NCBI GenBank assembly: GCA_027450145.1
Contig: DAIDKH010000001.1
Location: 255-64,254, forward strand
Direction of reading: 5' to 3'
Source of the DNA: Chthonomonadaceae bacterium
Lineage (GTDB): Bacteria > Armatimonadota > Chthonomonadetes > Chthonomonadales > Chthonomonadaceae
DNA: 64,000 nt
The position numbers were made by a program, and so were the translations under genes. This document shows, in pieces, positions 337 through 62,155 of the stretch (its first letter is position 1; each line of letters opens with the position of its first letter). The notes below the pieces were generated by a model. The model had not been told where the DNA came from, did not search any database, and saw only the letters and a program-made list of their open reading frames with translations.

Positions 337-1914
337 CTACGGGTTCGTGGGATCCAACGCCGAGGAAAGCACCCCGGTGAAGTATGTCGATTGGTAGGTA
401 TCAAAACGAACGAAACCGTGTGGTCCCCATTCAGCACACACACCTGATTGGTCTGTACTGGTCACGCCAAGATAAAACGCGGCGGCCGAATAAGGCATTG
501 AGGAGACCTTTTGAAAAGGTGCGAAATGAACGGTTTGTCCGATAGTGAAGTTTTCATTTGTTTTAAACGCCAGGTTCACATCTCTTAAATCTGTGCTTGC
601 AGAGATCGCTCCAGAATCCGTCTCGGCAAGTGTTGGTGCTGCCTGAAAGGAGCTGGTCCGGCCGGTACGATCACAATAGCAGAGGAACTTCCATCCGCCA
701 CGGAAATCCGCGTCTGAATACCGATAATAGTTGACTGTGACTGGCTTCCCAGTGTCTTGGAACGATCCAGGATGTTCGACAATATTCCTCACTGTCCAGT
801 TGTCATACATCGGATGGAAGGTGACGTAGATGTCGGCCGACGCCTTTGCATTATCTACTGCGTCGTATGCCGCGACATAGATATGATCTGTTGTGCCCGC
901 TTTTACCGATGCAATATTATCGTTAAACGATATTATGCCGTTCGAAATCACCCCTGATCCTGAAGCTCCCGTGGCGCCGTCGTACCATTTGTAAGGCGTG
1001 TTAGGGCTCCAGTTACCCTCTGCAAGTACCGAAATTGGCAGCGTCTGAACATTCTCGGGATCGCCAACGTCTGCGTCCAGCACGTTGACCATGGCTTTAT
1101 GTGAGAGAATGCGGTCATTACGATAGGTACCGGTGAAATACGTCGTAATGGGACTTATTGGTTGCAACCAGCGATTATCGACCCGTATTCCGCAGCGCAA
1201 ACCACAAAGCAGAAACTCCGTTTGAATGTTCTGAACGTTACCTTCATACGCTTGTCCATCGACCCTCAATGTCGGCGTCGTGTAATTTGCCGTGCCATCT
1301 GAACCCTGTAGAGGAATCAAATAAACAGATCTGCCAGGGGGATAGGGAAGCATAAACTGTCTGTTTTGCGTTGTCGTCAGATTAACGTTACCGCTTGGCG
1401 ACGGTTCGTAATACTCCATCGTGCCCATGATCATCTGCTGCGCCAGGGAGCCATTGAATGGCGCACTATGAAACCGTTCCACACTATCGTTATAGCCGTC
1501 GCTCAAAGTACCCTCTACTGTCGCGGGCGCCACATCATTCTGATTGTACTGCAAGCCAAACCAGGCATAGGGCCTTACTGCGATGACAGCAGGTGGAATG
1601 CCGCCGGCGGGCGGAGTTCCAGTCCATGCCAGCTTAACTGCCTCGCTTCCCGTGAGTTCCAGGTCATCGCTATAATCTGCGGACACGGGCAGCCACATTG
1701 GGTAATTGGCGCCAAAGAAGTCGTACTTTGCCCCCGGCCGGTCCAAGCCATCTACCTGCCGTGCAGTCAAACCTCCCATAGGACCCACATATTGCCCGGT
1801 AATCGAACATGTTGGCACCAGGCTTGTAATGGACCAACTACCTTCGTGCTGGGCGCGTGCACGAATAGGAGCGAGAAAAGCAAGCGCACCTACCAAACAC
1901 TTAACCAAGTTCAT
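337..1914 (-). CDS. Secreted protein of unknown function with Ig-like segment
   Basis: About 525 aa if translation starts at the ATG at 1914, which begins a clear Sec signal peptide (MNLVKCLVGALAFLAPIRARA). The frame stays open upstream to an ATG at 2166, but those 84 residues are basic and do not look like a leader. Neither start has a strong Shine-Dalgarno sequence, so the start is uncertain. The mature part is rich in aromatic and Gly/Asn/Thr residues, as in extracellular beta-sandwich proteins. A stretch about 180 residues from the C-terminus (VKAGTTDHIYVAAYDA followed by IYVTF) resembles an Ig-like fold. I do not recognise a catalytic family. It stands alone, 350 bases from the fucosidase on the same strand. 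Confidence 0.6.
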   Translation of the reverse strand: MNLVKCLVGALAFLAPIRARAQHEGSWSITSLVPTCSITGQYVGPMGGLTARQVDGLDRPGAKYDFFGANYPMWLPVSADYSDDLELTGSEAVKLAWTGTPPAGGIPPAVIAVRPYAWFGLQYNQNDVAPATVEGTLSDGYNDSVERFHSAPFNGSLAQQMIMGTMEYYEPSPSGNVNLTTTQNRQFMLPYPPGRSVYLIPLQGSDGTANYTTPTLRVDGQAYEGNVQNIQTEFLLCGLRCGIRVDNRWLQPISPITTYFTGTYRNDRILSHKAMVNVLDADVGDPENVQTLPISVLAEGNWSPNTPYKWYDGATGASGSGVISNGIISFNDNIASVKAGTTDHIYVAAYDAVDNAKASADIYVTFHPMYDNWTVRNIVEHPGSFQDTGKPVTVNYYRYSDADFRGGWKFLCYCDRTGRTSSFQAAPTLAETDSGAISASTDLRDVNLAFKTNENFTIGQTVHFAPFQKVSSMPYSAAAFYLGVTSTDQSGVCAEWGPHGFVRFDTYQSTYFTGVLSSALDPTNP

Positions 1915-2166
1915 GGTTGCGCGGCCCGAATTGGGTACGTCTTTGGCCGCCGGATGCGACCGGCGAGCGGACCCGGCTGCCAGGGCATGCCTAAGAGCAG
2001 CGGAACCACGCTCTGCGCTGGTGTTCTCCACCAACCGCCAATCACAGTCTGCCTTTGAGCAGTAGTTCGTTAGATAGCGATGTCTGTGTCGCTCTTTCAA
2101 TAGCTGCTGTTCTTCGAGCAAAGCGCCAATTTGAGAAATTGCAGGCAAAATAGGAGGGTCAATCAT

Positions 2167-2518
2167 CTTGTAGGATCTCTACTTACTCCCGCGTCTCGGG
2201 CGGTAAAGCGAACAGTTGGATGAGATGATAGGCAGGAACTTGCACCTGCTAACAGCCTAAAAATACAAACTTAAACACAAGGAACAAGTAGTCGTAAATA
2301 AACAAGCAACCACGCAACTACGAAAGTTATTATAGCGTCTTAAATATTGTTTGTCAACGCATTTCCACTAAATATTTGCTTTATAAATGTGCAATATTAT
2401 TAAACTTTTTACCTGCAAACGTGGTTTAAATGCTCATGCACATATAGCAGGACGCATTTTATGGCAAAACAGTACAGCAAATCAGGGGTGTACAGACCAC
2501 TCCGTACACCCCTGCGGC
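2167..2518. other. AT-rich intergenic region
   Basis: About 350 bases between two minus-strand genes. The part at 2270-2420 is strongly AT-rich and would suit a promoter for the secreted protein to its left, but I cannot assign -35/-10 boxes with confidence. The only clear element is the hairpin at 2484-2513. No gene is visible. Confidence 0.5.
2484..2513 (-). terminator. Probable terminator of the fucosidase gene
   Basis: A perfect 10-bp stem (AGGGGTGTAC with GTACACCCCT) and 10-base loop, starting 6 bases beyond the fucosidase stop codon. On the minus strand it is followed by a T-poor sequence (GATTTGCTGTACTGTTTTGC), so it is either a weak intrinsic terminator or an mRNA-end hairpin. Confidence 0.55.
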
Positions 2519-59185: not shown

Positions 59186-60004
59186 CTAGTTGAGAAGAAG
59201 TGTAAGGCATTTGGCCGCACCGCCAGATTTAAGAAATTCCGACATATCCACCGCTAACGGTGTAAACCCACAGTTCCGCAATTCGGTCTCGAAGTGTGGG
59301 CAGCCCGTAGGAAGCACCACAGTATTGCCAGCCACCACAGCATTACAGGCAAATCGCAATGCTTCTTCCAACTCTACCTCAATCGTTTCATAATGATGTC
59401 GTATGACAGTCTGTGCGTATTCGTCAAACGCACCTGGGTAAAATGCAACGCGATGTTGATCGAGTGGAAGCAGACACGTATCCAGGTGATACCACCTGTC
59501 GTCCGCTAGTTCGAGCGAGAGTACCGTCGTCGACAAGATATCAGCCATCCATCGGTGCGAGCAAATGTCACTTCGTTTAAGGTAGCCAGCTAGAAGATTT
59601 GGCCCTGCGAAAAGGGCATCCCCTTCCCCTTCAAACTTGCATCCTTCGGGGGGCGTGTGGACGGTATATCCCTGCTGAGTGAACCATTCAGCAAAATATG
59701 GCTCCTCTAGTGCGCGCTGAGGGTGTCGGAAGCTTGCGAGCAACGCACAGTCGCCTTTAGTCAGCCCTGCGTTGGCAGTGAAGACCATATCGGGGCATCC
59801 CTCGACCTGAGGAATTAGAGAGATATCGGCGCCGGCCTCCATGTTGAGGACATGAAAGAGGTTATCCCATTGCCGCATTGCGAGTGCGGTATCCGGTCTG
59901 TTTTCCAAGCGCATCCATGGATTGATCTCATATTCCAACCCATAGAAGGTCGGTGCGCACATCATCACTCGTGTAGATACTGATTGCGATGGTAGTTGGC
60001 TCAT
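59186..60004 (-). CDS. Arginine dihydrolase-like amidinotransferase-superfamily enzyme
   Basis: 272 aa, single pentein domain of the guanidine-modifying superfamily. Key residues are in place: N78 in FTANAG, E125 and D129 in FEGEGD, H173 and D175 in WYHLD, and the nucleophile C266 in GGAAKCLTL. In cyanobacterial ArgZ/AgrE the same motifs belong to an arginine dihydrolase that converts arginine to ornithine, CO2 and two NH3. An Asn at the FTANAG position separates that activity from arginine deiminases. The start ATG overlaps the stop of the ornithine-cyclodeaminase-like gene (ATGA), which is the second domain of AgrE. Dimethylargininase activity is the alternative. Confidence 0.85.
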   Translation of the reverse strand: MSQLPSQSVSTRVMMCAPTFYGLEYEINPWMRLENRPDTALAMRQWDNLFHVLNMEAGADISLIPQVEGCPDMVFTANAGLTKGDCALLASFRHPQRALEEPYFAEWFTQQGYTVHTPPEGCKFEGEGDALFAGPNLLAGYLKRSDICSHRWMADILSTTVLSLELADDRWYHLDTCLLPLDQHRVAFYPGAFDEYAQTVIRHHYETIEVELEEALRFACNAVVAGNTVVLPTGCPHFETELRNCGFTPLAVDMSEFLKSGGAAKCLTLLLN

Positions 60005-61218
60005 AAGTCTACACCGGGCAGTCGTGCTGCCAGTTCCTTTAGGAAGAATTCGCAGTCAGTCACTATACCAAATGCCTGGTGCGTTCCTCTATCCATTAAC
60101 TTAATCACAGAATCTGCATCACTATCCACACAGAGAGTCCTGACGCTTGCCGGCAACAGGTTACCAGTTGCGACTGAATGCAGGGTAGTGGCTACCATTA
60201 GAGCAACTGCAACGCCTTTTACTTGGCTGCGCATTGCATCCTGGGCTCTAATCACATCGGTAATAACATCCGGCAGCGGGCCATCGTCCCTAATACTGCC
60301 TGCTAATACATAGTCGGTATTGGTGGTGATGCAGGCATGCATAATGCCGCTGGTAAGCGTGCCGTCTTCCACTGCCGCTCTAATGGATCCGCATCCGCGA
60401 ATACGGTTGATCGCTCTCAAGTGGTTTTCGTGGCCATGAGCCATGCTGTTACCTGTAGCAATTTCTACACCCAGCGAGGTACCAAACAGCGCCCGCTCTA
60501 TATCGTGAGTCGCCAAGGCATTACCCGCGAACAGCACATCAATCCAGCCGGCATTAATGATCGCTTCAAGAAACCTACCGGCCCCCGTATGCAAGATAGC
60601 AGGTCCACCAACAAATAGAATGCGTTTGCCATGTGCACGTGCATCAACCATCGCCTGCACGATGGCGGCAACCACCAGTGCTTTGGGACGCTCTGTACTT
60701 ACTTCACTGCCCATGAAGCCAAAGGCATCGTCCGGATCTCGGCGGTCAACTGGTGTTACATGCACACCTTGATCCCCAACAACTACCCGGTCACCTTTTA
60801 CCACTCGATGCATTGGCAGGCATTCCACTACTCCTTCGGCCTTTACGACAATCGCGCAATCCATTTCAATGGGATCCACTGCCCTCCATTCCGAGTCGAT
60901 CCGAATGCGCGTTTGAAGATTAGTCGTGGAGTAAAATCCATCGGGGAGAACACCATCCTTTGGCGCTTCGATAAGATTGACCTCGCCAGTTGATCGCTGA
61001 ACACCGTGCTGTTGGGTCATATGCAGAATCTTGTCGAGCGTCGCTGCATCTGGAGCGCTTACCTCGATATCCGCATGACTGGGATCGGAACGCGTCGCTC
61101 CCATAACAAATCGCTGAATATGGTACTCGCCACCCTCTCGCAGAATAATATCCATGACCTTTGAGAGTGTAAGAGAGTCGATGATATGACCTTCAAGCCG
61201 CACCACTTCGGATGGCAT
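60001..61218 (-). CDS. LOR/SDH-type (TIGR00300) ornithine cyclodeaminase-like protein
   Basis: 405 aa, AAGGAG 7 bases before the ATG. It matches the LOR/SDH bifunctional-enzyme conserved domain family: EVVRLEGHIIDSLTLSKVMDII at the start, GFMGSEVSTERPK, then a Rossmann region with ILFVGGPAILHTGAG, GNALATHDIE and SMAHGHENHLRAINRIRG. Archaeal and cyanobacterial members act as NAD-dependent ornithine cyclodeaminases giving proline. It is co-translated with the arginine dihydrolase-like gene, so the pair should run arginine to ornithine to proline. Cytoplasmic. Confidence 0.88.
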   Translation of the reverse strand: MPSEVVRLEGHIIDSLTLSKVMDIILREGGEYHIQRFVMGATRSDPSHADIEVSAPDAATLDKILHMTQQHGVQRSTGEVNLIEAPKDGVLPDGFYSTTNLQTRIRIDSEWRAVDPIEMDCAIVVKAEGVVECLPMHRVVKGDRVVVGDQGVHVTPVDRRDPDDAFGFMGSEVSTERPKALVVAAIVQAMVDARAHGKRILFVGGPAILHTGAGRFLEAIINAGWIDVLFAGNALATHDIERALFGTSLGVEIATGNSMAHGHENHLRAINRIRGCGSIRAAVEDGTLTSGIMHACITTNTDYVLAGSIRDDGPLPDVITDVIRAQDAMRSQVKGVAVALMVATTLHSVATGNLLPASVRTLCVDSDADSVIKLMDRGTHQAFGIVTDCEFFLKELAARLPGVDL

Positions 61219-61267: not shown

Positions 61268-62155
61268 CTATGCGTTCATTGACACATCACGGGTATAGCC
61301 CTTGCAGAACCTCAATATCTCGTGAGAAGCGCTAAACGGGTCACTAATAGGGCCTGCTGTGCGCTCACCCAGACGGGACGGACTGCCCGGCCAGTGGTGG
61401 CCCATATTATGTACGATTAGCTGCACAAACCTCCGATTAGCATCGAGCCCTCTAAATTCTCTGCGCTCCAATGCCTCGTCGTTCTCGACGGTACAGGGCT
61501 GCCGAGAAATATCCTGGGCGTCCAACCAGGCGTCGCGCACACGGGCAACAGGCGCCGCCACGTGCCTCCCACCCCAGGGTGGTTCGATGGTACCGCCCTC
61601 CAACGGGCAGAATGGATCACGAGAGCCAAGCACCCACATAACAGGTACCGGACGTTGCCCCGATCGCGGCTGAGGAGAATGCGTGGAGCAGACGATACCG
61701 GCCGCTGCAATGACTTCTGGTGCCTCCACTACCAGCTTCCATACCAGCTGCCCACCATTCGAGAAACCACATACATACACTCGTGACCTGTCAATTCTTG
61801 CTGAGAAGCGCTCGTCTAACGCATCTATACATGCCCTTGTAAACTTTACTTCATCCACAGGTGCCCCGTGTGCAAGCGGCCTCGTGCGCCATATACGCGG
61901 ATTCCTTCTGAAAGAAACTGGCCGTTCTGGCCACACTGGCAATCCGTTCGGCGCCGCGATAATAATCGATTCACGGTTAGCAAGTTCCGCTAGACTATAG
62001 TCTTCCACCGCCATTTCACCTGAGGCACCCATACCGTGGAACACAAGAAGAAGAGGAACTGTGCCTAAACTAGTAAGGTTACTAGGACACGCGAGGGCCA
62101 TGCTCCTTATCCATCCACTGAATTCAAATTCAAGTACTTCCTCGGTAGCTCTCAC
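61268..62155 (-). CDS. Alpha/beta hydrolase, esterase/PHB depolymerase-like
   Basis: 295 aa from a GTG at 62155 whose bases overlap the methyltransferase stop (GTGA). LLLVFHGMGASGE carries the oxyanion strand. The nucleophile elbow is G130-F-S132-N-G. D in WVLGSRDPFCP and His in HNMGHHWPG complete a triad. The family (PHB depolymerase/feruloyl esterase-like) hydrolyses esters. No signal peptide is present, so it acts in the cytoplasm. The substrate is not predictable. It is part of a run TPR-methyltransferase-hydrolase and lies 49 bases before the arginine pair. Confidence 0.85.
   Translation of the reverse strand: MRATEEVLEFEFSGWIRSMALACPSNLTSLGTVPLLLVFHGMGASGEMAVEDYSLAELANRESIIIAAPNGLPVWPERPVSFRRNPRIWRTRPLAHGAPVDEVKFTRACIDALDERFSARIDRSRVYVCGFSNGGQLVWKLVVEAPEVIAAAGIVCSTHSPQPRSGQRPVPVMWVLGSRDPFCPLEGGTIEPPWGGRHVAAPVARVRDAWLDAQDISRQPCTVENDEALERREFRGLDANRRFVQLIVHNMGHHWPGSPSRLGERTAGPISDPFSASHEILRFCKGYTRDVSMNA

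Follow-up and report, generated by a model that had tools for sequence, protein, structure and literature searches.

Two adjoining genes on the reverse strand of the 64,000-nucleotide stretch of DNA analysed here (the window) form, as we are fairly confident, a two-gene version of the cyanobacterial arginine-to-proline route, in which one fused protein, AgrE or ArgZ, converts arginine to ornithine and ornithine to proline. The first gene of the pair (60001..61218, minus strand) encodes a 405-aa LOR/SDH-type ornithine cyclodeaminase (LOR) and the second (59186..60004, minus strand) a 272-aa arginine dihydrolase-like guanidine-modifying enzyme. Both ORFs start with ATG, and the start codon of the 272-aa gene runs into the TGA stop of the 405-aa gene, giving a 4-base overlap (60001..60004, minus strand) that is likely to result in translational coupling. 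The first-pass annotation had read the pair as a split counterpart of ArgZ/AgrE in reverse order, and the sequence bears this out: the two ORFs are separate, the cyclodeaminase gene comes first here while the dihydrolase domain comes first in AgrE/ArgZ, and both folds and all catalytic residues are retained. The pair therefore lies outside the bifunctional ArgZ/AgrE family (NF052231), which has both domains in one polypeptide. The genes are real and well-formed, and very probably functional. A further ORF on the same strand, an alpha/beta hydrolase by its Pfam match (61268..62155, minus strand), lies 49 bp upstream and is a possible member of a longer operon; no homologue of it was found beside the pair in the loci of relatives, many of which comprised only 1.5 kb flanks.

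The 405-aa protein matches the ornithine cyclodeaminase model TIGR00300 with 477 bits (cut-off 410.8) over model positions 2-402 of 407, and its three Pfam parts, Saccharop_dh_N, ArgZ-like_C_1st and ArgZ-like_C_2nd (PF04455, PF21571 and PF21570, all over curated cut-offs), are those of the ArgZ C-terminal half. Its sequence matches in the PDB are 3c2q, ArgZ and AgrE, and its AlphaFold model (pLDDT 86) lies at 1.6 Å from M. maripaludis 3c2q_A and also fits the C-terminal half of ArgZ, with a deoxyhypusine-synthase-like fold, which is an NAD-binding one. Residues H210, H238, D239, H263, H266, D311, D312, H347, N353, K373, D376 and R377 are as in AgrE, ArgZ and 3c2q, and the key His/Asp/Lys set of LOR is kept in most homologues. 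One might still suppose that this protein makes no proline and acts on another substrate, as a LOR/SDH-type dehydrogenase or as a regulator, since the older Pfam name is LOR/SDH, some lineages have LOR without any dihydrolase, and several Verrucomicrobia carry, beside the dihydrolase, a LOR with conserved residues lost (H210R, H238Y). This seems very improbable to us, as the score on the TIGR00300 equivalog exceeds the cut-off, all conserved residues are common with AgrE, itself solved with ornithine and NAD, and the distribution of LOR is inverse to that of ProC and ProA (see below).

Several LOR variants were seen in the course of this survey. In the Verrucomicrobiota mentioned above (loci L095, L096, L102, L104, L107, L121 and L126) the LOR gene lies directly upstream of an intact dihydrolase gene, the losses in LOR further include D312E/Q, D376E and others, and the cyclodeaminase may be changed or inactive; LarE was absent in four verrucomicrobial genomes tested. 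In two loci of Gastranaerophilales (L080, L091) and one of Verrucomicrobiota (L099), the dihydrolase gene is preceded only by an ORF of ~76-80 aa corresponding to the LOR N-terminal domain, and the Rossmann part was not detected there. A very divergent LOR subfamily (~270 bits; L185 in genome G274 and L171 in G275) has its active site rewritten (H263A, H266M, H347L, N353Q), and in G274 the open frame extends ~300 residues upstream with no Pfam match, which may be frame read-through.

For the 272-aa protein, the closest relatives of solved structure are the dihydrolase domains of AgrE/ArgZ (E 3e-63), with N78 aligned to N71, the Asn of the second hydrolysis step, and C266 to C264. The catalytic positions named in the first-pass annotation (N78, E125, D129, H173, D175 and C266) are all there and, together with N28, R144, N221 and G262, are identical in 120 out of 120 aligned dihydrolase homologues, which include actinobacterial proteins annotated as dimethylargininase and one haloarchaeal protein. 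The predicted model (pLDDT 96) has the ArgZ fold, with a TM of 0.93 and 1.2 Å against the ArgZ N-terminal domain, while DDAH, the next structural group, gives a TM of 0.82 and 2.5 Å or more. The structural comparison with ArgZ/AgrE that had been proposed as a check agrees with the annotation for both predicted models. At E up to 0.01 no Pfam family matched, and the protein scored below the cut-offs of both NF052232 (arginine dihydrolase; 258 bits, cut-off 450) and NF045659 (dimethylargininase, M. tuberculosis type; 267 bits, cut-off 300). Since no genome of the Armatimonadota set passed the NF052232 cut-off (best 337 bits), this cut-off seems to have been chosen strictly, and the model tells us little about split members.

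The slightly higher score on NF045659 and the existence of actinobacterial "dimethylargininases" that are ~40% identical and have the same catalytic residues would fit a dimethylargininase or an arginine deiminase, an enzyme of single hydrolysis yielding citrulline, which would stand next to the cyclodeaminase as part of arginine metabolism at large. The catalytic residues proved useless for telling a dihydrolase from a "dimethylargininase", because the whole set is common to both labels, and residues alone thus leave the dimethylargininase label standing. Nevertheless, we regard a single-hydrolysis enzyme as unlikely. ArgZ and AgrE are the closest solved relatives by a wide margin, not only in structure but also in sequence (bacterial DDAH matches with E 2e-12), the Asn that the second hydrolysis requires is retained, and the neighbouring enzyme takes ornithine, not citrulline. 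Moreover, the reference protein of NF045659, presumably M. tuberculosis Rv2323c as read from the model name, may itself be a dihydrolase. This is suggested by the fact that its annotation was made by homology only, while a knockout study in M. tuberculosis found it to be needed for growth on arginine and for the flow of carbon from arginine to proline (PMC4569260). Its operon partner being an ornithine cyclodeaminase, the 272-aa enzyme most likely yields ornithine.

We thus propose, from fold, residues and partner, that the 272-aa enzyme would hydrolyse arginine twice, giving ornithine, CO2 and two ammonia, and that the 405-aa enzyme would cyclise ornithine to proline with loss of ammonia, through a redox cycle internal to the enzyme, with a bound nucleotide as cofactor: either NAD, as AgrE has it, or the nickel-pincer nucleotide. 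Coupled translation would hold both proteins in balance. NAD is a plausible cofactor, as the title of PDB entry 6lrg has AgrE with ornithine and NAD+, but it is not established, because the NCBIfam name of TIGR00300 is nickel-pincer-nucleotide-dependent. We give the nickel-pincer nucleotide (the LarB/C/E product) in place of NAD somewhat less than an even chance. On one hand, besides the NCBIfam name, the window's genome has LarE and LarC without LarA; among the 172 of 291 genomes of the phylum with LarE or LarC, LOR is found in 41 of the 72 without LarA and in 8 of the 100 with it (shared descent uncorrected); and, of 24 LOR-bearing genomes or records that were reached by way of other loci, 17 carry LarE. 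On the other hand, 24 of 73 LOR genomes, many of them >95% complete, lack both LarE and LarC, and co-occurrence (49 with, 24 without either gene) gives p 0.13 over 291 genomes, with shared descent uncorrected. The key residues of the Rossmann domain are unchanged in the sampled lar-less LOR genomes, no sequence signature in the Rossmann part separates lar-less from lar-bearing cyclodeaminases, and AgrE was crystallised with NAD and ornithine. Among the papers searched, none describes a nickel cofactor in this enzyme. Six of the 24 lar-less LOR genomes have a LarA homologue, and a missed or alternative cofactor source is therefore possible.

Some related observations concern the lar genes and the cyclodeaminases themselves. 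In six genomes (G081, G088, G090, G139, G203 and G228, most >95% complete), neither LarE nor LarC was found, and their LarA homologues are either non-nickel LarA relatives or served by another cofactor source. The cyclodeaminases of family f15 vary at H11, S15 and D23 of the N-terminal domain. LarC is the nickel insertase of the nickel-pincer cofactor, and in the window's family its C-terminal half follows a MogA/MoaB-type molybdopterin-binding domain in one fused protein (PF00994 plus PF01969 positions 239-375; L003:1459-2409, minus strand, G000:C62; L186-L201). This fusion, both parts of which come from cofactor metal-insertion chemistry that activates a nucleotide, was matched nearly full-length in all 17 family genomes, in one of them as two pieces and in the other 16 undivided. 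A separate gene, unlinked to the fusion, codes for the N-terminal half of LarC and overlaps the next gene, which encodes a classical PF02423 ornithine cyclodeaminase/mu-crystallin family protein (L002:479-1537 and 1519-2253, minus strand, G000:C24); the window's genome thus holds, with LOR, two unrelated types of candidate ornithine cyclodeaminase.

The two-gene form is not confined to the window. A scan with the dihydrolase alignment, using one genome per species, gave at least 580 confirmed relatives, the best 80 of which were read. In all 87 linked locus records (some being the same place twice) LOR lies directly upstream of the dihydrolase on the same strand, and the order seen in the window is thus not a matter of chance. 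The operon was found in Armatimonadota, Planctomycetota, Verrucomicrobiota, Nitrospirota, Nitrospinota, Chloroflexota, Myxococcota and Omnitrophota, with Nitrospira moscoviensis and Ca. Nitrospira defluvii among its carriers, and the -4 overlap recurs in relatives from Armatimonadota, Nitrospirota, Nitrospinota and Chloroflexota. The two-gene form turns out to be the usual one across many bacterial phyla, neither rare nor exceptional. Papers were searched for reports of this pair in Armatimonadota, Planctomycetes or Nitrospira, and no relevant one turned up. The partners are not strictly bound to each other, as each is also found alone: LOR without dihydrolase in many genomes, dihydrolase without LOR in some. 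The two genes are not linked in family f16; in genome G163, 1.4 Mb separates them. When neighbours of LOR-only genes were inspected as other ornithine sources, only unrelated genes were seen in the loci scanned.

The distribution of LOR was compared with that of ProC and ProA. ProC was detected in 166 of 291 Armatimonadota genomes and is missing in 44 of the 73 that have LOR. With families f14 and f15 set aside, 27 of 40 genomes that lack ProC have LOR, against 29 of 158 genomes that have ProC (Fisher p 5e-9, without correction for shared descent). ProA was looked for in 74 selected genomes, most of them near-complete; it exceeded the cut-off in 1 of 33 genomes with LOR and no ProC versus 8 of 16 with both (p 2e-4), and neither ProA nor ProC was seen in three near-complete LOR-bearing members of the window's own family (G045, G048 and G054). 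In many relatives the LOR cyclodeaminase is the only proline-making enzyme recognised. Since ProC is missing from so many LOR genomes, most of which lack ProA where tested, many relatives without ProC and ProA probably rely on the cyclodeaminase as their main proline synthase. Still, a missing ProC is in itself no proof of substitution by LOR, as 61 genomes of family f15 (G072-G157) have neither over the thresholds used, and other solutions must exist. The window's own genome has kept both ProA and ProC; the pair is thus not needed there for proline and more likely belongs to arginine utilisation, probably as an arginine-using route of nitrogen release and proline supply. A broader possibility, to which we assign about even chances, is that much of Armatimonadota, and perhaps Planctomycetota, Verrucomicrobiota and Nitrospirota, makes proline from ornithine by LOR/SDH (arginine entering via the coupled dihydrolase), in replacement of ProB, ProA and ProC acting from glutamate. 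If true, the textbook proline pathway would have been replaced on a large scale, which is easily missed because the split dihydrolase falls below curated cut-offs.

It had also been suggested that the pair might be the ancestral unfused form of the cyanobacterial enzyme. The first half of this idea stands: fused forms, seen in cyanobacteria only and, among the sequences examined, only those of Nostoc linckia, AgrE and ArgZ, make up one clade in both maximum-likelihood trees (100/99 for the dihydrolase and 100/99 for LOR; midpoint rooting, for drawing only), nested among unfused genes. The cyanobacterial fusion is thus supported as a single, derived event that arose from an unfused relative. 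The second half does not stand. The wide spread of unfused genes and the nesting of the fused ones as a single clade might invite one to see the LOR-dihydrolase operon as the immediate ancestor of AgrE/ArgZ, which we find hardly credible: every one of the 87 linked loci has the reverse gene order, and loss of the stop codon in the window pair would join LOR to dihydrolase, not dihydrolase to LOR. In addition, the fused clade is sister, in the LOR tree, to an unlinked gene of the Armatimonadota genome G018 (100/98), the dihydrolases flanking this clade are those of G018, other Armatimonadota and Gastranaerophilales, and the window's two genes are placed elsewhere in both trees. Gene order and tree position led us to reject the window operon as a direct ancestor of AgrE.

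What the window holds is a split variant of an already known enzyme; what is new here is that, in Armatimonadota, many LOR genomes are without ProC and most of those tested also without ProA. The arginine-to-proline route is extended from cyanobacteria to a widely distributed two-gene operon, the cyanobacterial fusion is placed as a late single event, and a large group of putative dihydrolases that has been missed or mislabelled as dimethylargininase comes into view. Organisms that would count as proline auxotrophs because their genomes lack ProC and ProA are predicted to be prototrophs, and the cyclodeaminases with and without nickel-cofactor genes are a natural test set for the disputed cofactor.

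In comparison with known systems, the window pair has both domains, the folds and the catalytic residues in common with AgrE (Alr4995, Anabaena) and ArgZ (Sll1336, Synechocystis), but consists of two proteins, with the LOR gene preceding that of the dihydrolase, and its identity to them is ~42% for the dihydrolase and ~36% for LOR. The archaeal LOR/SDH proteins of TIGR00300 (M. maripaludis 3c2q, ~49% identity, and M. jannaschii MJ1480) are separate cyclodeaminases, as in the window, where, however, the gene is directly coupled to that of an arginine dihydrolase. The actinobacterial "dimethylargininases" (NF045659) have the catalytic set of the 272-aa protein at their ~40% identity, but Rv2323c of M. 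tuberculosis has no adjoining LOR gene and sits with rocD and rocE, and in three actinobacterial loci viewed the homologue had other or unannotated neighbours and no LOR beside it. Bacterial and mammalian DDAH, arginine deiminase and AstB have the guanidine-modifying superfamily fold in common with the 272-aa protein, from which DDAH is clearly more distant (~20-23% identity, at the 2.5 Å or more given above) and arginine deiminase lower still.
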